Under the pieces are notes generated by a model. It saw only the letters and a program-made list of their open reading frames with translations, ran no database searches and was not told the DNA's origin. From Candidatus Thermoplasmatota archaeon (GTDB lineage Archaea; Thermoplasmatota; SW-10-69-26; JACQPN01; JAIVGT01): a stretch of DNA of 32,180 nt. A program made the position numbers and the translations under genes. Positions 10,852 to 24,877 of this stretch are shown here, one piece after another. Position 1 is the stretch's first letter; each line of letters starts with the position of its first letter. The stretch spans positions 1 to 32,180 of the forward strand of contig DATLFM010000037.1 of assembly GCA_035541015.1 (NCBI GenBank), given 5' to 3'.

Positions 10852-11634
10852 TCAAGCGTCGGGGTGAAGGATGCGCCCCATCTCCTCGGCGCCTTCCACC
10901 ACGCGAGGGCCCGGGCGCCCGTAGACGCCCTCGTCGAGGAGGTGGATGCGGCCGGCCTTCACGGCCGGAAGCTCCGTCCAGCCCGCGCGCCCCGCGACGC
11001 GGTCCACGCTCTGCTTTCGCTGCAGCGTGCCGCACCAGCAGACGAACACGTGGTCGAAGCGGCGGGCGAAGACGTCCTTTGGGTCCACGGGCATGGACGC
11101 GCCGGGCGCGTCGGCAAAGACGTGGCGGCCGCCGGCGGCCGCGGCCAGGTCGTTCACCCACGTGTCGCGGGTGGGCACGATGGGGCCCATGCGTGGGCCC
11201 GGCGGCCACCATTCGAAGTAGAACGGCACGACGGGACGCCCCCGCGTGCGAGCCGCGACGACGGAGAGGCGCGACTGCATGGACTCGACGATCTCGCGCG
11301 CCTCGCGCGTCCGCCCGGTGCGCTCGCCCACGAGGCGGATCTCGTCGAGGATGGCCTGCCAGCCCCTCGCGTCCAGGACGAGCACGGGCAGCCGGCGTGC
11401 CCGGAGGCTCTCCACGACGCGCTCCATGCCGGGCACCGACAGGGAGGCCAGCACGAGGTCGGGCGCGTGGGATTCGACCTTCGCCGCGTCGATCTGCAGG
11501 TCCTTCCCGACGCGGGGCAAGTGCTGGACCTCCTTCGGGAAGTCGCTGTCGTCGTCGAGCGCCACGAGCTCGTCGGAGAGCCCAAGCGCGCAGGCGATCT
11601 CGGTGTTCGACGGGCAGACGGAGACGATCCGCAC
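10852..11634 (-). CDS. BtuF-like substrate-binding protein without signal peptide
   Basis: A 260-residue protein of the helical-backbone periplasmic binding family (COG0614; BtuF/FhuD type) that in transporters binds corrinoids, haem or iron chelates. It begins MRIVSVCPSNTEIACALGL, the typical first strand of the mature domain. The LPRVGKDLQIDAAKVESHAPDLVLASL block, the long connecting helix (AREIVESMQSRLSVVAARTRGR) and the second-lobe WWPPGP...TWVNDLAAAAGG segment follow. There is no signal peptide or lipobox and no permease gene nearby, so it is predicted to be cytosolic. Related signal-less BtuF-like proteins are known but poorly understood. The start at 11634 is supported by a TATA box 22-30 bases upstream. 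A link to the ECF system 5 kb away is possible but speculative. Confidence 0.8.
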   Translation of the reverse strand: MRIVSVCPSNTEIACALGLSDELVALDDDSDFPKEVQHLPRVGKDLQIDAAKVESHAPDLVLASLSVPGMERVVESLRARRLPVLVLDARGWQAILDEIRLVGERTGRTREAREIVESMQSRLSVVAARTRGRPVVPFYFEWWPPGPRMGPIVPTRDTWVNDLAAAAGGRHVFADAPGASMPVDPKDVFARRFDHVFVCWCGTLQRKQSVDRVAGRAGWTELPAVKAGRIHLLDEGVYGRPGPRVVEGAEEMGRILHPDA

Positions 11635-16859: not shown

Positions 16860-17660
16860 ATGAGATTGGTCCCCCCGCTCCTCTGCCTGGCCCTCGTCGC
16901 CGCGACCTTGCCCGCTCTCGCCGTTTCCGAACTGCCGGACCTTCGCGTCGAGCTTCTGGCTTCGGAGCCGGCGTCACCGTGGGCCGGAGACGCGACGACC
17001 TTCCACGCTCGGGTTACCAACGCCGGGACGGCCCCCGCGGGCCCCTTCGTCGTCCGCTTTGCGATGGACGGCGTGGCGCTTTCGCAGCAGGCCGTCGCCG
17101 GTCTTGCGCCCGGCGAGAGCGCGATCCTGTCCGGGACGTGGAGCGCGCGCGCCGGCTCGCACGAGCTTGCCGTCATGGCCGACGCCGACGAAGCCGTCGC
17201 CGAGGCGGACGAGTCGAACAACGCGGCGACGCTGCCGCTGGAGGTGCTTGCGCTCGTCACGTTGCGCGTCGCGCCCGAAGGCTTCGTCGTGCCGAACCAC
17301 TGGCTCGTGGGCAACCCGGCCGTGTGGATCGTGGACCCCGTCGCCGACCCGTCGTTCAACGGCCTCGACGGCGTGGCCGGCTGCGTGCTTGCCGTCGCCG
17401 ACGCAACGGGCGATTTCCGCGTGGACGGCGGCGAGGTGCTCGACGCGGCCGCCGCCAGCGGATGCGTCTCCGGCTGGGAGTTTGGCTCTTCGTCGTGCTG
17501 CGGGCGGTTCGTGACGAGCGTCGACGGGCTTGCAGAGGCGGGCTGGCCCGCGAGCTGGTGGCTCCTCCAGATCGACGGCTTTGGATCGTGGGTCGGCATC
17601 GACGACATGGACCTCCTGAGCGGGCAGAGCCTGGAGCTCGTGCACCTCGTGGGCCCCTGA
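16860..17660 (+). CDS. Secreted CARDB protein with transcobalamin-C-like (DUF4430) domain
   Basis: A 266-residue exported protein. Residues 1-22 are a signal peptide. Residues of about 25-115 form a CARDB domain (DLRVELLASEPASPWAGDATTF and following, with a typical EADESNNAATL ending). The rest resembles DUF4430: GEVLDAAAASG, GRFVTSVDGLAE, SWWLLQIDGFGSWVGIDDMDLLSGQSLELVHL match the pattern of a ligand-capping domain found at the C-terminus of animal transcobalamin. Four clustered Cys (GCVSGWEFGSSSCCGRF and an earlier GCVLA) may form disulfides. It is the first gene of the ECF operon, with three bases before the next gene. It may be a secreted or loosely attached partner of the binding proteins. 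The CARDB call is firm; DUF4430 is by motif reading. Confidence 0.75.
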   Translation: MRLVPPLLCLALVAATLPALAVSELPDLRVELLASEPASPWAGDATTFHARVTNAGTAPAGPFVVRFAMDGVALSQQAVAGLAPGESAILSGTWSARAGSHELAVMADADEAVAEADESNNAATLPLEVLALVTLRVAPEGFVVPNHWLVGNPAVWIVDPVADPSFNGLDGVAGCVLAVADATGDFRVDGGEVLDAAAASGCVSGWEFGSSSCCGRFVTSVDGLAEAGWPASWWLLQIDGFGSWVGIDDMDLLSGQSLELVHLVGP

Positions 17661-17663
17661 CGC

Positions 17664-20195
17664 ATGAGCGCCCGCCCGTACCTCGCCGCGGTCGCCGCCC
17701 TGGCCATCCTCCTTGGCGCGCAAGCCCACGGCGGCCTTCCCCTCGAACCGTCCGAAGCGCCCGTTCGCGAGGCCGTTGGGTTCCTTCGCGCCAAGCTCCA
17801 GCCCGACGGCTGCGTGGCGGGCGACTCGGGATGCGGGCACGCAACGACCTCGTGGGCCTCCTTCGCCGCCGCCTCGGCGGGAGAGGACCTCGACGCGTGG
17901 CGCCTCACGCCGTCCGCCGCCACGCCGCTGGAGGCGCTGCGCGATCGCCGCGGCGAGCTCTCGTCCTCGGCCACCGGATCGGGGCCCACGGACCATGCGC
18001 GGGCGATCCTCGCGCTCCTTGCCGCCGGCGAAGACCCGCGGCGGTTCGACGGCCACGACTGGGCTGCCTCGCTTGTCGCCTTCCACGGCGCCGTCCAGCC
18101 GAAGGTGATGGGCGATCCGAGCAAGACGCACCACGCGATCTGGGCCGCCCTCGCTCTTGCGCGACTGGACGAGCCGGCGCTCGGGCCCGTTCTCGACGAC
18201 CTGCTCGTGTACCTCCGCTCGGCGCAGGGCGCAAACGGGGGATTCGGAGCCGCGCCGCAGGCGTTCGTGGAGGCCGACACGACCGGCGCGGCGCTCATGG
18301 CCCTTGCCGCGCTCGGCCTGAGCCGGGGCGATCCGACCGTCGATCGCGCGCTTCTCTTCTTGGAGATGAACCAGCGGGAGAACGGCGGATTCACCAACGG
18401 CGCGACGGCGCACACGCAGAGCACGGCGCTCGCCGTCCAGGGCATCCTGGCCGTCGGCGAGGACCCGCTCGCGCCCCGGTACCGCAAGAGCGGCGGCGAC
18501 CCGCTCGCGTTCCTGCTCGCCTCCCGCGCGCCCAGCGGCGGCTTCGGATTCCAGCCCGGCGCCACCACCGCCAACGCGTGGGCGACGTCGCAAGTCGTGC
18601 CGGCGCTTCGCGGCATGCCCTTTCCCATCCTCGCCCCCCGCGCCAAGATCGCCTGGTCACCCCCGGAGCCGTCCACCGCCGCGCCCGTCGAGCTGCGGGC
18701 CGTTGCCCTCGACCCCGGCGGCGGCCCGCTGTCGTACCGCTGGCGGGTGGACGGCGCGGACGCGGGCGAAGGCGAGGCCGTCTCGCATCGCTTCGACCAT
18801 CGCGGGCCGCACGAAATCACGCTGACCGTGCGCGACGCGGATGGCCTCCTGAAGACCGCCCGCCAGACGCTTGTCGTGGGCAACGCGGCGCCCGTCCCCG
18901 CGCTTGCCGCGCCCGCGCGCGCGTTCCGCAACGCGACCGTCGAGTTCCACGGGCTTGCGTCCATGGACCCGGACGGAACCATCGTCGCATGGCGCTTCGA
19001 CTTCGGCGACGGGCACGCGACCCGCTGGACCGACGCGCCCGTGGCCGAGCACGCGTTCCGGTCGCTGGGCTCGTACACGGTGCGCCTCGCCGTGCGCGAC
19101 GCGGACGGCGCCGTCGCGACGGCCGCGCGCGGGATCGTCGTCGAGAACCGCCCGCCGCTTCTCTCGCTTGCGCCCGCGTGGACCGCCGACCGCGTCTCGC
19201 CGCTTCGCTTGCATGCCGAAGCGAGCGACGTGGACGGATCGATCGCGTCGTGGCGGTGGGACTTCGGGTCCGGCGACGTGTCGTCGGAGCCGTCGCCGGA
19301 ACGGCGATTCGAAAGCCTTGGCGCCCGCAGCTTCGTCCTCGCGGTGACCGATTCGGACGGCGGCGTCGCGACCGCGAGCGGGACCATCGAGGTCGCGAAC
19401 CTTCCGCCGCGCATCGCCGGGGTGACCGTCCTGCCCTCGCCCGCGCGGGCCGGGGCGCCCGTGCGCCTGACCGCGGAGGCACACGATCCCGATGGGCCGC
19501 CGCCGGTCGTCCGCTGGCGCTGGGGCGACGCGTCGTTCGAAGGCTCCTCGATCGAGGCGATCGCTCCGTCGGCGGGCGACACGGAGGTCCTTTTGGAGGT
19601 GGTCGACGAGGACGGCGCCCTTGCGCGCGCCGTCGCGCGTTTCCACGTCGTCGACCCGGCGAACGAAACGCAGGCGCCCTCCGAAGAGGCGCCCGCGGCT
19701 CTGGCGCAAGAGCCACCAGCCTCCCGACCCGCCGCCGGCCCCGCGCCGGCCGCCGAACCCGAGCGTTCCGGCGAGAACCGCCGCCCCGCGCTGCACGTGC
19801 GCTCGGCCACCGTCGACGGCGAGCGGGTCTTTGTCGAAGGACTCGCCACGGACGAGGATGGGGATGATATCACGGTCTTCGGGTGGCTGGACGGTCGCGT
19901 CTACGAAGCGCCGGGACCATCGTGGCGCATCGAAGCCTCGTTCGATCCCGCCCGGGGCGCGCGCCCCATGGTCTTGCGCGCGCTCGATTCGCAGGGATTC
20001 GGAAGCGACCTCGCGCGCGCGTGGCTCGATCCCGGCCGGCCGCTGACCGAACCGCTCGAGGAGGCGTCGGAGGCGATCACCCTGTCCGATCGGACGCGCG
20101 AGTCCGAGGGCGCGCAACCGGATCATGCAATCCCGATCCCGGCTGCAGCCTGCATCGCGGCGCTCGCGCTCGCCGCGCGCCGGAGGCGCGCATGA
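17664..20195 (+). CDS. Surface alpha/alpha-barrel (prenyltransferase-fold, transcobalamin-N-like) protein with PKD domains
   Basis: An 843-residue exported protein. After a signal peptide (residues 1-22), residues of about 30-325 form an alpha/alpha barrel with repeats typical of squalene-cyclase/prenyltransferase folds. Examples are TTGAALMALAALGLSRGDP, NGGFTNGATAHTQSTALAVQG and SGGFGFQPGATTANAWATSQVV. Transcobalamin and intrinsic factor use this fold for their N-terminal half. The catalytic DxDD of cyclases is absent, which favours binding over catalysis. Four PKD-type Ig domains follow (about 330-665), then a Pro/Ala linker, another beta domain (about 705-800) and a C-terminal hydrophobic tail with RRRR (IPIPAAACIAALALAARRRR). 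It is probably a membrane-anchored ligand-capture arm. Its stop overlaps the next start (ATGA). Confidence 0.8.
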   Translation: MSARPYLAAVAALAILLGAQAHGGLPLEPSEAPVREAVGFLRAKLQPDGCVAGDSGCGHATTSWASFAAASAGEDLDAWRLTPSAATPLEALRDRRGELSSSATGSGPTDHARAILALLAAGEDPRRFDGHDWAASLVAFHGAVQPKVMGDPSKTHHAIWAALALARLDEPALGPVLDDLLVYLRSAQGANGGFGAAPQAFVEADTTGAALMALAALGLSRGDPTVDRALLFLEMNQRENGGFTNGATAHTQSTALAVQGILAVGEDPLAPRYRKSGGDPLAFLLASRAPSGGFGFQPGATTANAWATSQVVPALRGMPFPILAPRAKIAWSPPEPSTAAPVELRAVALDPGGGPLSYRWRVDGADAGEGEAVSHRFDHRGPHEITLTVRDADGLLKTARQTLVVGNAAPVPALAAPARAFRNATVEFHGLASMDPDGTIVAWRFDFGDGHATRWTDAPVAEHAFRSLGSYTVRLAVRDADGAVATAARGIVVENRPPLLSLAPAWTADRVSPLRLHAEASDVDGSIASWRWDFGSGDVSSEPSPERRFESLGARSFVLAVTDSDGGVATASGTIEVANLPPRIAGVTVLPSPARAGAPVRLTAEAHDPDGPPPVVRWRWGDASFEGSSIEAIAPSAGDTEVLLEVVDEDGALARAVARFHVVDPANETQAPSEEAPAALAQEPPASRPAAGPAPAAEPERSGENRRPALHVRSATVDGERVFVEGLATDEDGDDITVFGWLDGRVYEAPGPSWRIEASFDPARGARPMVLRALDSQGFGSDLARAWLDPGRPLTEPLEEASEAITLSDRTRESEGAQPDHAIPIPAAACIAALALAARRRRA

Positions 20196-21112
20196 GGGAC
20201 CTTTGGGGCGCGCTTGCCGTGGCCGCGGTCCTAGCCGGCTGCTTGGGGTCCTCCGCCGACGCCCCGATGTCGGTCACGGTCGTCGTGACGCGCGACTTCG
20301 GCCAGACGCTCCTCCTCGAACGAGAGATCGCCATCTTCGGCGGCGCAAGCGTGATCGAGGCGCTCCAAGCGGTCGCCACGGTCGAGCGGTCCTACGGCGG
20401 AGGCTTCGTGCAAGCCATCGACGGCGTCGGCTCCGGCTTTGGCCGCGGAGAGCGGTTGGACTGGTTCTATTACGTGAACGGCCTGCACGCCAACGTGGGC
20501 GCGGCCGTTCTCGAGCTTCGCGACGGCGACGCCGTGCAGTGGGACTACCACTCGTGGGAATACAGCCTCATTTTCCCGGCCTTCACCGGCGCCTTCCCGC
20601 GGCCCTTTGTCCAAGGCCCCGTGCGTCTGCCGGTCGAAATCGGGCACGCCGCCGGTCTGGCCGAGCAGGCCGCCGCGCTCGCCGACGCGCTGCGGCAGGC
20701 CGGCACCCGGGCGCGCGCGCGTCCCCTCGCCGAGCTTGCGGCCGATCCCGTCGCGCGCTCCGGGGACGCTCATCTCATCCTGCTTGGAAGCTTCGCCGAT
20801 CCTCTGATCTCGGAACTGGGAGCGCCGCACGCCTCGCTCGGGCTCTTCGCGCGAGCGCACGAGGCGGGCGTCGAGCTTCTGGACGCGCGGGGCCGTCCCC
20901 ATCGTGTCACGGCGGGCGCCGTCGTGCAGACGACGCAGAATCCGTGGGCCGACGGCGGCGTCGGGGCCATGCGCGCGGCCGTGCTCCTGATCGTCGGCCC
21001 CGACCCCGATGCCGTGCGCGCGGCCGCGACCGTCCTCTCCGACGCGCCCGAACGGCTGCGGCACCGCCACTCCGTGGTCCTCGAGGGGGATTCCGTGGAG
21101 GCCCTGCCGTGA
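20192..21112 (+). CDS. DUF4430 (transcobalamin C-like) lipoprotein
   Basis: A 306-residue lipoprotein: the signal peptide ends in the lipobox LAGC with Cys17. Residues of about 25-125 match DUF4430 closely: GGASVIEALQAVATVE, FVQAIDGVGSGFGRGERLDWFYYVNGLHANVGAAVLELRDGDAVQWDYHSW. In animal transcobalamin this beta domain covers the ligand held by the alpha barrel. Residues of about 140-300 are a second, Rossmann-like domain (DAHLILLGSFADPLISELG, GAVVQTTQNPWADGGVGAMRAAVLLIVGPD), which recalls domains in some archaeal surface proteins; I am unsure of its family. The gene overlaps the barrel gene upstream and ecfT downstream by four bases each, so all three are translated together. Predicted role: surface receptor handing a vitamin to the ECF transporter. 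Confidence 0.82.
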   Translation: MRDLWGALAVAAVLAGCLGSSADAPMSVTVVVTRDFGQTLLLEREIAIFGGASVIEALQAVATVERSYGGGFVQAIDGVGSGFGRGERLDWFYYVNGLHANVGAAVLELRDGDAVQWDYHSWEYSLIFPAFTGAFPRPFVQGPVRLPVEIGHAAGLAEQAAALADALRQAGTRARARPLAELAADPVARSGDAHLILLGSFADPLISELGAPHASLGLFARAHEAGVELLDARGRPHRVTAGAVVQTTQNPWADGGVGAMRAAVLLIVGPDPDAVRAAATVLSDAPERLRHRHSVVLEGDSVEALP

Positions 21113-21924
21113 AGGGCCACCCCGCGCCGATCCTCGTCTGGGCGGCGGCGCTTGGCGTCGCATCATTCCTCACGGGCGATCCGGTCGTGCTGGCCGCGCT
21201 TGCGGCAGGGGCGTTGGCCGTCGTGCGGGCCGAGCGCGCCGGCGCCGCGTGGCGGGCCCATATGCGCATCGCGCTTGCAAGCGCGGTCGTCTTCCTGCTC
21301 CTCAATCCGTTCTTGCCCTTGGGACCGGGCCAGACGCTGTGGCGATCGGACTTCCTCTTGCCCGTCTTCGGGCGGCTCCAGGTGACGATCGAGTCGCTGT
21401 CGTTTGCCCTGGCCATGGGCCTCCGCATGGCTCTTGTCCTCACGGCCTTCGCGGTGCTCTCGCGCGCGCTCGACGCCGACGCCCTCGCCGGCGCCCTTGC
21501 GGCCCGGCTGCGTCCGACAGCGGTCCTTCCCTTTGCCCTGGCCGCGCGGTTCCTGCCGGTCCTGTCCTCGGACGCCCGGGCCATCGCCGACGCGCAACGA
21601 ACGCGGGGCGTGGCGTGGGACCGCGGCCCCTTCCTGGCCCGCGCCCGAGCCGCCGGCGCGTTGGCCATGCCTCTCCTCGAGACGTCGCTCGACCGCGCCG
21701 CCCGGCTGGCCGAGGCCATGGAGGCGCGCGGGTTTGGCGCCGGGCCCCGTACGCGTTGGCGCCCGGTCCGGCTGGGCCGCCGTGACGCCGCCCGCGCCTG
21801 CATGGCCATCCTTCCGGCGCTTGCGCTTGCGGCGGGGCCGTGGGCGGCGCTTGCCGCCGCGGCCGGGTCGCTTCCCTTCGCCGCGCTTGCGCGCGGACGC
21901 ACGAGCGTGGAGGAGGCTCCGTGA
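21109..21924 (+). CDS. ecfT: ECF transporter transmembrane component EcfT
   Basis: EcfT is the membrane scaffold of energy-coupling-factor importers, linking ATP hydrolysis to the S component. The 271-residue protein has N-terminal TM helices (for example ILVWAAALGVASFLTGDPVVLAALAAGALAVV) and the two coupling motifs that dock in the ATPases: DAQRTRG at about residues 161-167 and EAMEARGFG at about 202-210, both of the Ala-x-Gly/ARG type. The GTG start overlaps the DUF4430 stop, and its end overlaps ecfA (GTGA). Confidence 0.87.
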   Translation: MKGHPAPILVWAAALGVASFLTGDPVVLAALAAGALAVVRAERAGAAWRAHMRIALASAVVFLLLNPFLPLGPGQTLWRSDFLLPVFGRLQVTIESLSFALAMGLRMALVLTAFAVLSRALDADALAGALAARLRPTAVLPFALAARFLPVLSSDARAIADAQRTRGVAWDRGPFLARARAAGALAMPLLETSLDRAARLAEAMEARGFGAGPRTRWRPVRLGRRDAARACMAILPALALAAGPWAALAAAAGSLPFAALARGRTSVEEAP

Positions 21925-23375
21925 TCCGCTTCGAGGATTTCTCGTTCGCCTACGGCGAGTCTCCTCGTCGGGCGCTCCGGGGCATCGAGCTTGCGATCGA
22001 ACCGGGCGAGTTCGTGCTCGTGGCTGGGCCCTCCGGATGCGGGAAGTCCACGCTCCTTCGCGCCGCCTGCGGCCTCGTTCCGAACTTCCACGGCGGACGC
22101 TTCGACGGTCGCGTGCTCGTGGACGGCGCGGCCGCCGACGCGCTGCGCCCGCGCGACCTCGCCTGGCGTGTGGGTCTTGTCTTCCAGGACCCGGAGGACC
22201 AGATCGTCGCCCAGACCGTCGGGCGCGAGGTCGCCTTCGGACCCGAGAACCTCGCCCTCGATCCCGAAACGCTGGAGGCGCGCGTCCGCGAGACGCTCGA
22301 AGGGGACGGCCTTTGGGCCGAGCGCGACCGCGACGTGAACGAGCTCTCCGGCGGCTCCAAGCAGCGGCTCGCCGCGCTGTCGGTCCTCGCGATGCGCCCG
22401 CGCGTGCTTCTCCTCGACGAGCCCACGAGCGCTCTCTCGCCATCGGCCGCGCAGCGGCTCCTTTCCTTCCTGGACGCCGCCCGCCGCCGTACGGGCGCGG
22501 CCGTCGTCCTCGCCGAGCACCGGCTCGACCGCGTGCGCCCCTTCGCGACGCGCGCCGTCCTCCTCGCCGACGGGGCGATCGTCTACGACGGGCCGGCAAA
22601 CGGCTCGGACTTCGCGGCCACGGCGGGCGCCCTGGGGTTGCTGCTTCCGGAGACCCAAGCGCGCCGCCGGCACGCCGACCTTGCTTCGAAGCAGCCGGAC
22701 CTTCTCGTGCTGCAAGGCGTGCGCGCGGGTCACGGCGAGCGGCCGGTCCTCGACGGCGTGGACCTTCGCGTTTGCCACGGCGAGGTCGTAGCCCTCACGG
22801 GCGAGAACGGCAGCGGCAAGACCACGCTCCTCCGCGTGGCGCTGGGACTCCACGCGCCCGCGGACGGCTCCGTGCGCGTGGCCGGCCTCGATCCCGCGCG
22901 CGCCGATCCCGCCGCGATCGCCCAGAAGGCGGGCGCCGTCTTCCAGAACCCGAACGACCACCTGCTGGAGGACACGGTCGAGCGCGAGGTCCTCGCCGCC
23001 CTCTCCGCCCGCCGATGGCGTGGCGACGCAGCGCGCCGGGAGGCCGCGCGCGTCCTTTCGGGGCTGGGCCTTGCCGAGCTCGCCTCCGAGCACCCGCGCG
23101 ACCTCTCCGGCGGCGAGCGGGAGCGCGTGGCGCTTGCCGCGGCGCTGGCCGGCTCGCCGCCGCTCCTTCTCCTCGACGAGCCCACGCGCGGCCTCCACGC
23201 GGCCACGAAGCTCGACCTTTTCCGGCGGCTGCTTCCCTCCGCGCGCAAGGACGGCGCGGTCCTGTTTGCAACGCACGACCTGCCGCTTGCGCGCGCGGTC
23301 GCCGACCGCGTCGTCCGGCTGGACGCCGGAACCATTTCCGAGGAGCCGCCGGCGACCGTGGAGGTCCCCGCGTGA
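21921..23375 (+). CDS. ecfA: ECF transporter ATPase, two ABC domains fused
   Basis: A 484-residue protein with two complete ABC ATPase domains in one chain, doing the work of the usual EcfA1/EcfA2 pair. Domain 1 (about 1-240) has Walker A GPSGCGKST, Q-loop VFQDPEDQIV, signature LSGGSKQR and Walker B VLLLDEPTS. Domain 2 (about 245-475) has Walker A GENGSGKTT, Q-loop VFQNPNDHLL, signature LSGGERER, Walker B LLLLDEPTRG and switch His in FATHDL. The QDPEDQI/QNPNDHL Q-loops are typical of ECF ATPases. Domain 1 has VVLAEHRLDR, with the switch His in AEH. Both sites look active. The gene sits between ecfT and the S component with overlapping stops and starts. Confidence 0.9.
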   Translation: MIRFEDFSFAYGESPRRALRGIELAIEPGEFVLVAGPSGCGKSTLLRAACGLVPNFHGGRFDGRVLVDGAAADALRPRDLAWRVGLVFQDPEDQIVAQTVGREVAFGPENLALDPETLEARVRETLEGDGLWAERDRDVNELSGGSKQRLAALSVLAMRPRVLLLDEPTSALSPSAAQRLLSFLDAARRRTGAAVVLAEHRLDRVRPFATRAVLLADGAIVYDGPANGSDFAATAGALGLLLPETQARRRHADLASKQPDLLVLQGVRAGHGERPVLDGVDLRVCHGEVVALTGENGSGKTTLLRVALGLHAPADGSVRVAGLDPARADPAAIAQKAGAVFQNPNDHLLEDTVEREVLAALSARRWRGDAARREAARVLSGLGLAELASEHPRDLSGGERERVALAAALAGSPPLLLLDEPTRGLHAATKLDLFRRLLPSARKDGAVLFATHDLPLARAVADRVVRLDAGTISEEPPATVEVPA

Positions 23376-24169
23376 TCCGCGCAAGCGGCGCGGCGCTTGC
23401 AGCGGCGGTGGGACTGGGAGCGGCCGCCCTCGCGCTGCCGCTTGCAGATCCGAGCGTCTCGCTGTCCGGCGGCCCCGTCGTGGCGCTCCTTCTCAGTGGC
23501 ATGTTCCTCATGTCCGTCGTCGCGGCGGCGCTGCGCTTTGCCGAGGACGGCGCCACCGTCCGCGAGGTCTCGCTCGTGGCCATGCTGGGCGCTTTTGCCG
23601 CCGCCTCTCGCGTGCCCTTTGCGGCCATCCCAAGCGTGCAGCCCGTCACGTTCCTCGTCGTCGCCGCGGGCGCGACCTTCGGCGCGCCGGCGGGCTTCCT
23701 CGTGGGAGCCGTCGCAGCCGTCGCCTCGAACGTCGCGCTTGGCCAAGGGCCCTGGACGCTCTACCAGGCGTTCGCGTGGGGCCTTGCCGGCGCAAGCGGC
23801 GCGCTCGTTGCGCGGTGGCGCCCCGGGCCTCGCGCCTGGGCGGCCTTTGGCGCGGGCTGGGGATTTGCGTTCGGGTGGCTCCTTGACGTGTGGGTTTGGC
23901 TCGCCTTCTACGCGCCGCTTACGCTCTCGTCGCTTGCCCTCGTGCTCGCCCTTTCGTTCCCGTTCGACCTCCTGCACGCGGTCGGCAACGCCGTCCTCTT
24001 CCTCGCGTTTGGCCCCCGGGCGCTTGCCATCCTCGCCCGCCACCGGGCAAAGCTCGTCCGGCGGCCCCTGGAAACCGAGGAAAAACCGGCCTTGATAAGG
24101 GGGCCTCCGGCCGCCGGTACGCCCGTTGCCGAGGCCATAAACTCCCCGACGGCCCAGCCCCAAAACTAG
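23372..24169 (+). CDS. ECF transporter S component, probably for a corrinoid
   Basis: A 265-residue membrane protein with about six TM helices, the substrate-binding part of the ECF importer. The stretch REVSLVAMLGAFAAASRVPF, IPSVQPVTFLVVAAG, then AAVASNVALGQGPWTLYQ and FAWGLAG defines one recognisable S-component family, whose members I recall next to DUF4430 genes in Gram-positive bacteria. The specificity cannot be read from the sequence; cobalamin or another corrinoid is inferred from the transcobalamin-like partners. An unusual polar C-terminal tail of about 45 residues follows the last helix. The start GTG overlaps the ecfA stop. Confidence 0.8.
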   Translation: MIRASGAALAAAVGLGAAALALPLADPSVSLSGGPVVALLLSGMFLMSVVAAALRFAEDGATVREVSLVAMLGAFAAASRVPFAAIPSVQPVTFLVVAAGATFGAPAGFLVGAVAAVASNVALGQGPWTLYQAFAWGLAGASGALVARWRPGPRAWAAFGAGWGFAFGWLLDVWVWLAFYAPLTLSSLALVLALSFPFDLLHAVGNAVLFLAFGPRALAILARHRAKLVRRPLETEEKPALIRGPPAAGTPVAEAINSPTAQPQN

Positions 24170-24199: not shown

Positions 24200-24877
24200 A
24201 TGCTGCCGGTCATGGTCGACCCCCCCTGTTTCCTGAGCCTCGTGGAGAGCTCCATCGAGGTGTTCAACCGGGAGACGACCGGCATGCTCATCGGCCACCC
24301 GCGCAAGCGGACGATCCGCGGGAAGCCCGAACGGGTCATGGCCCTCGACGTGGCGTTCCCCATCCAGACGGCCGCCCGGCGCGTCTTCTCCGTGGAGCCG
24401 GGAAACGGCGCGGCCTTCCACCGGGCTCGCAGCGCCATCGACAGCCTGGGCTACCGCATCGTCGGCGAGTTCCACAGCCACACGAACAACCACGTGGCCC
24501 TCTCGCGGGACGACCTCGCCTACGCCCGGAACGCCCTCCTCGAGAGCGGCGCCGACGCCTGGCTCGAGCTCATCCTTGGCGTCCGCAAGAAGACGTACGC
24601 CTCGCCCAAGCGCGTGGGCTGGATCTGGCGCGACTACCACAAGAAGGCCGGGTGCACCGTGCGCATCACGGAGGACACGGGCTTCGACGTGACGATCGGA
24701 GCCTTCTGGGTCTACCACGATGCCGCAAGCGGCCGCGTGAAGTGGAGCGAGGAGACCGTGTTCATCCCGTGGGCCAAGCACTATTGGGTGGATCCCCGGC
24801 GCGCCGCGCGGAACGGGAACGGCTCGTTCCTCCACGCCTCGGGCGTGCGCATGCCCGCGGGCGTGTACGCGCGATAG
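24200..24877 (+). CDS. JAMM/MPN-domain metalloprotease-like protein
   Basis: A 225-residue soluble protein with a JAB1/MPN (JAMM) domain. The zinc motif is complete: Glu in ESSIEVFNRETTG and the full HxHx7SxxD core in GEFHSHTNNHVALSRDD, at about residues 89-105. Archaeal JAMM proteins remove ubiquitin-like SAMP modifiers; others cut different substrates. The second half (about residues 120-225) is an extension with many aromatic residues (WIWRDYHKK, GAFWVYHD, WAKHYWVDPRR) that I do not recognise, so the substrate may not be a ubiquitin-like protein. It starts 30 bases after the S-component gene and may belong to that transcription unit. Start ATG at 24200; the in-frame ATG at 24212 is an alternative. 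Confidence 0.85.
   Translation: MLPVMVDPPCFLSLVESSIEVFNRETTGMLIGHPRKRTIRGKPERVMALDVAFPIQTAARRVFSVEPGNGAAFHRARSAIDSLGYRIVGEFHSHTNNHVALSRDDLAYARNALLESGADAWLELILGVRKKTYASPKRVGWIWRDYHKKAGCTVRITEDTGFDVTIGAFWVYHDAASGRVKWSEETVFIPWAKHYWVDPRRAARNGNGSFLHASGVRMPAGVYAR

Follow-up and report, generated by a model that had tools for sequence, protein, structure and literature searches.

A probable CbrT-type cobalamin importer with putative transcobalamin-like surface proteins in a Thermoplasmatota archaeon

The operon at positions 16860-24169 (+) of the window, the whole 32,180-nucleotide stretch analysed here, is a real and conserved locus that encodes a probable cobalamin importer of a known, mostly predicted type. 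Judging from sequence comparison and structure models, its surface proteins are most likely transcobalamin-like receptors. We consider it quite likely that the six genes form a CbrTUV-type ECF importer of cobalamin (cobamide) in an archaeon that uses B12 and is apparently unable to make it. The genes, numbered 1 to 6 in this order, are the following.

16860-17660 (+): predicted secreted protein of 266 aa with a CARDB domain (1e-19), a C-terminal DUF4430-like domain and a hydrophobic N-terminus
17664-20195 (+): surface toroid-PKD protein of 843 aa, assigned from domain searches, a structure model (pLDDT 91.0) and a fold search
20192-21112 (+): DUF4430 lipoprotein of 306 aa (DUF4430 3e-14; model pLDDT 92.9) with an LAGC lipobox and a BcsB-like C-terminal domain
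21109-21924 (+): EcfT of the CbiQ family (Pfam, 1e-21), CbrV-like
21921-23375 (+): EcfA with two ABC cassettes in one chain (ABC_tran 7e-55), CbrU-like
23372-24169 (+): S component, CbrT-like (phmmer to 6fnp_A, E 6e-10; alignment A2)

The stop codon of gene 1 (17658-17660) is followed by the ATG of gene 2 at 17664, leaving a gap of 3 bases. The junctions 2/3, 3/4, 4/5 and 5/6 are 4-base overlaps (ATGA or GTGA) at 20192, 21109, 21921 and 23372. The place, order and strand of the genes and their coupled or nearly coupled junctions, as given in the preliminary description, were thus confirmed from the sequence. The gene set is beyond chance, because distant relatives keep the same genes together. 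No riboswitch was found in the window at gathering thresholds. Directly downstream of the operon, without overlap, lies a gene for a JAB-domain protein (24200-24877, +; Prok-JAB 4e-8).

The importer core is typical of ECF systems. The CbiQ/EcfT match of gene 4 identifies it as the ECF membrane protein, and both cassettes of the fused EcfA are complete, each with Walker A, LSGG and Walker B motifs. The match of gene 6 to the Pfam ECF S component model (ECF_trnsprt) was weak and below the cut-off (7.9e-5). Among all PDB sequences (E up to 5), the only S component that gene 6 matched was CbrT (6FNP), over residues 63-214, and the stretch QPVT...SN..LG.G.WTL.Q is common to both. The sole other match, an amino-acid oxidase at E 0.012, was taken as chance. 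Gene 6 therefore groups with a cobalamin carrier, and not with an S component of another known substrate. ECF-CbrT of Lactobacillus delbrueckii (6FNP) has been proven to bind and import cobalamin and cobinamide (PMC5997447). It belongs to the same S component family, and the ECF mechanism is assigned to the archaeal system by homology. The predicted B12 importer carries the name CbrUVT in the literature; the assignment of the double ATPase as CbrU-like and of the T protein as CbrV-like is our own. The Lactobacillus cbrT gene lies in an nrdJ-cbrS-cbrT-pduO cluster without toroid or DUF4430 surface proteins (PMC5997447), whereas the window has a dedicated T protein and double ATPase in the same operon.

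To examine relatives, the S-component alignment was scanned against one genome per species, which gave 80 loci. Since the loci were picked by the S component only, their surroundings provide independent evidence. Sixty loci offered 8 kb or more of upstream sequence; EcfT and EcfA were present in all of them, DUF4430 in 56 and a toroid in 52. A single chain combines the toroid with DUF4430 at 42 of the 80 loci, and other loci have the two apart. Separate genes alone were seen at 16 of 80, a count that is approximate because of a 9-kb limit; in L060, L107 and L119 a fused gene is present beyond that limit. A cobalamin riboswitch (Rfam RF00174) precedes the operon in all eight bacterial loci checked, which had been preselected by a crude B12-box regular expression used only for choosing loci for Rfam. 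Two Dehalococcoidia loci (L072 and L077) share the order of genes 2-6 of the window, namely a long-tailed toroid, a DUF4430 lipoprotein, EcfT, fused EcfA and the S component. Their toroid tails are MgtE_N/CARDB-like or BACON/InlB-repeat, whereas the tail in the window is PKD, and unlike in the window no gene for a CARDB protein with a DUF4430-like domain was found in front. In a quick S-component tree with long branches, from which we claim no direction of gene transfer, the S component of the window clusters with those of its class relatives (SH-aLRT 95), within a group rich in Bacillota. The split toroid/DUF4430 form is thus one arrangement of a widespread system. The novelty implied earlier for the split set is not supported: bacteria commonly have the toroid and DUF4430 in separate genes, and the operon type was described in 2007, archaea included.

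The host genome encodes the B12-binding subunit of methylmalonyl-CoA mutase and a PduO-type cobalamin adenosyltransferase. It also carries a heptaprenylglyceryl phosphate O-acetyltransferase gene, which marks the host as archaeal; from the position of named relatives in the S-component tree, its phylum appears to be Thermoplasmatota. CbiD, CobS and CbiB were not found in the host or in six class relatives, while control genomes gave matches, and a BtuC-type permease (FecCD) was not found in the host genome; this genome is 96% complete in a draft of 114 contigs, so these absences are not final. With the mutase and adenosyltransferase present, and the synthesis genes and BtuC-type permease not found, the simplest reading is that the host is a B12-dependent auxotroph in which the ECF system is the one B12 importer recognised. 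Taken together, the CbrT match, the riboswitches of the bacterial relatives and a B12-using host without its synthesis make a corrinoid the most likely substrate in the host, in support of what had been claimed at the outset. Elsewhere in the window (10852-11634, -) is a gene for a BtuF-like binding protein (Peripla_BP_2 4e-26; BtuF model 1e-14), whose frame starts at the mature domain, without a signal peptide. In a genome of the same order (G001), the homologue of this gene is directly followed by a cobalamin adenosyltransferase gene. The BtuF-like protein may be a cytosolic corrinoid-binding protein.

Profile searches of PDB sequences with the gene 3 and toroid profiles did not find transcobalamin, and structure models were then used for the surface proteins. 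Gene 3, a secreted protein with a beta-grasp DUF4430 domain (Pfam), was modelled as a single chain from 27 sequences. The top fold match of the model was the beta domain of human transcobalamin (5no0), with a TM of 0.72 on the target and an rmsd of 2.3, and haptocorrin and intrinsic factor were also among the matches. The lipoprotein was as first described, except that its C-terminal domain of about 160 residues, which resembles BcsB of cellulose synthase in the fold search, had been overlooked. Gene 3 can be aligned with 26 relatives, archaeal and bacterial, over its full length and not just across DUF4430.

Gene 2 consists of a predicted signal peptide, an alpha/alpha toroid at about residues 30-316, PKD domains (9e-43) and a short hydrophobic C-terminus. 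Pfam matches to the squalene-cyclase/prenyltransferase toroid were weak (5e-5 and 3e-4), and NCBIfam gave SCO2321_fam at 3e-15. The barrel and PKD stalk of the preliminary description stood, while its anchor comes down to a short hydrophobic stretch before RRRR that scores as no clear transmembrane helix. The toroid was modelled as a good alpha/alpha toroid. Its nearest fold matches were terpene cyclases, and intrinsic factor came at rank 26. The modelling thus supports a toroid fold, which taken alone is no pointer to cobalamin. The fold searches of both models support the proposal that each of the two folds is also present in transcobalamin-family proteins. A structure search without transcobalamin and an S component of other known substrate, two outcomes that the preliminary description had named as refuting, did not occur.

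In gene 1, DUF4430 reached 20.9 bits in the Pfam protein scan, against a cut-off of 23.8, and 23.9 bits in the whole-genome scan, with neighbours in the frame included. The domain scored 26.9 bits in a same-class relative of gene 1 (L037). At the sequence level, a DUF4430 domain in gene 1 appears borderline.

Within the phylum, toroids occur in 25 of 390 genomes, including six of the seven of the class, and DUF4430 in 202 of 390. A genome of the same class but another family (G006) keeps the order DUF4430-like gene, toroid, DUF4430, EcfT, EcfA and S. G001 keeps the toroid and ECF genes, and DUF4430 was not detected in its genome. There, beside the EcfA and toroid genes, one frame encodes EcfT followed by an S-component-like domain (L038:8103-9449, -); joining T and S in this way would restrict how freely the S component can dissociate. 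In other parts of the phylum, DUF4430 often has a PQQ-type beta-propeller protein nearby or as a fusion partner. In L045, L048, L050, L051 and L055, PQQ_2 beta-propellers, some fused to DUF4430, adjoin S-component or DUF4430 genes and take the toroid's place. The S-component profile also picked up the membrane family DUF6580, which in three genomes precedes DUF4430 in single chains, at L042:6796-7893 (-), L043:7025-8116 (-) and L044:7207-8235 (+), with no EcfT or EcfA found near these three fusions. DUF6580 genes also adjoin DUF4430 genes in L048 and L052. These fused or adjacent genes suggest a common ligand for DUF6580 and DUF4430.

From these features we propose how the system might work. 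The DUF4430 lipoprotein and the toroid protein, predicted to lie on the outer face of the membrane, would capture scarce corrinoid, probably holding it between the toroid and DUF4430 by analogy with transcobalamin. They would then deliver the corrinoid to the CbrT-like S component, which would move it inward once joined to EcfT and the fused ATPase. In the cytosol, an adenosyltransferase would then make adenosylcobalamin for methylmalonyl-CoA mutase. Several observations speak against this reading: terpene cyclases are the best matches of the toroid, the sequence profiles of the two surface proteins missed transcobalamin, no riboswitch was found in the window, and G001 has toroid and ECF genes but no DUF4430 that could be detected. 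That the separate toroid and DUF4430 close on cobalamin and hand it to the S component, as a dedicated multi-part extracellular receptor, has in our estimate an even chance of being right. The ECF system could also carry a corrinoid with no single clamp formed by the two proteins. In that case DUF4430 would bind the corrinoid by itself or together with gene 1, leaving the toroid protein to act as a store, an adhesin or a binder of its own. This possibility, to which we give less credence, is favoured by the excess of DUF4430 over toroids in the phylum (202 against 25 of 390 genomes), most of which has DUF4430 without a toroid. The beta-propeller protein often found in the toroid's place and the separate chains in the window point the same way. 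Against it, the 42 fused loci of 80 join the two domains in one chain, like the animal carriers.

Known routes for using corrinoid precursors need CobS and CbiB. Neither of them, nor CbiD, was found in the host and its class relatives, and the mutase and adenosyltransferase are present. This argues against a scavenged ligand other than a complete cobamide, which might be cobinamide, another precursor or, as Burroughs et al. suggested for archaea, a distinct metabolite (PMC1796856). We regard such a ligand as unlikely, even though CbrT takes cobinamide too (PMC5997447) and the 2007 paper remarked that archaea with DUF4430 (SLBB) proteins often make B12 (PMC1796856). Across the phylum, in a departure from that remark, DUF4430 is negatively associated with CbiD: the two occur together in 3 genera, where 10.5 would be expected (Fisher p 3e-4, without correction for kinship).

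A secreted terpenoid-cyclase-like enzyme, standing beside the importer for another reason, is a very improbable reading of the toroid protein. Squalene-hopene cyclases and drimenyl diphosphate synthase are indeed what the toroid matches best in sequence and fold, and DxDD[TS] occurs in 18 of 43 toroid relatives, in which D-x-D-x-T is nearly invariant. However, the window toroid reads EADTT where DxDD aligns and so does not carry the type II terpene cyclase motif. The protein also has a signal-like N-terminal stretch and PKD domains, and its relatives occur fused to DUF4430 and in operons with a cobalamin riboswitch. A cobalt or nickel importer of the CbiMNQO kind, suggested by the match of EcfT and EcfA to cobalt-transporter models, is hardly credible and was rejected, as the S component matches CbrT and neither CbiM nor NikM, and no corrin synthesis that would need cobalt was found in the host.

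Much of the system, read as a corrinoid importer, had been foreseen. Burroughs et al. (2007) described secreted DUF4430 (SLBB) proteins with toroid fusions, naming archaeal members, in operons with a CbiO-like ATPase, a CbiQ-like protein and often a second DUF4430 paralogue, and proposed B12 scavenging for these transcobalamin-like operons (PMC1796856). The window shares with these operons the secreted DUF4430, the toroid, the CbiO-like ATPase and the CbiQ-like protein. It differs in that the toroid and DUF4430 are separate chains, a gene for a CARDB protein with a DUF4430-like domain comes first, the toroid carries PKD domains and a link to CbrT is made for the S component. In the literature searched, mostly outside subscription journals, we found no experiments on prokaryotic toroid or DUF4430 surface proteins. 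What the analysis adds is the apparent auxotrophy of the host, the CARDB protein with its DUF4430-like domain, the negative association of DUF4430 with CbiD and the fusion of DUF4430 to the S-like DUF6580.

The animal B12 carriers are single chains of a toroid and a beta domain, taken up by endocytosis. Human transcobalamin, intrinsic factor and haptocorrin share both folds, the DUF4430/beta domain and the alpha/alpha toroid, with the window. In contrast to the animal proteins, the window has the folds in two chains from separate genes (17664-20195 and 20192-21112), beside an ECF importer and with no sequence-profile match.

ECF transporters are usually pictured as capturing their substrate through the S component alone, a view from which a multi-part receptor, if present, would depart. 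Lactobacillus ECF-CbrT functions in proteoliposomes without such a surface protein (PMC5997447), and receptors are therefore not required in every system. Should the S component indeed receive B12 from the surface proteins, true extracellular binding proteins would exist for ECF transporters, and the split transcobalamin would be a working prokaryotic counterpart of the animal B12 carriers. Hand-over could be tested directly with compact gene sets such as that of the window or those of the Dehalococcoidia and Moorella loci.
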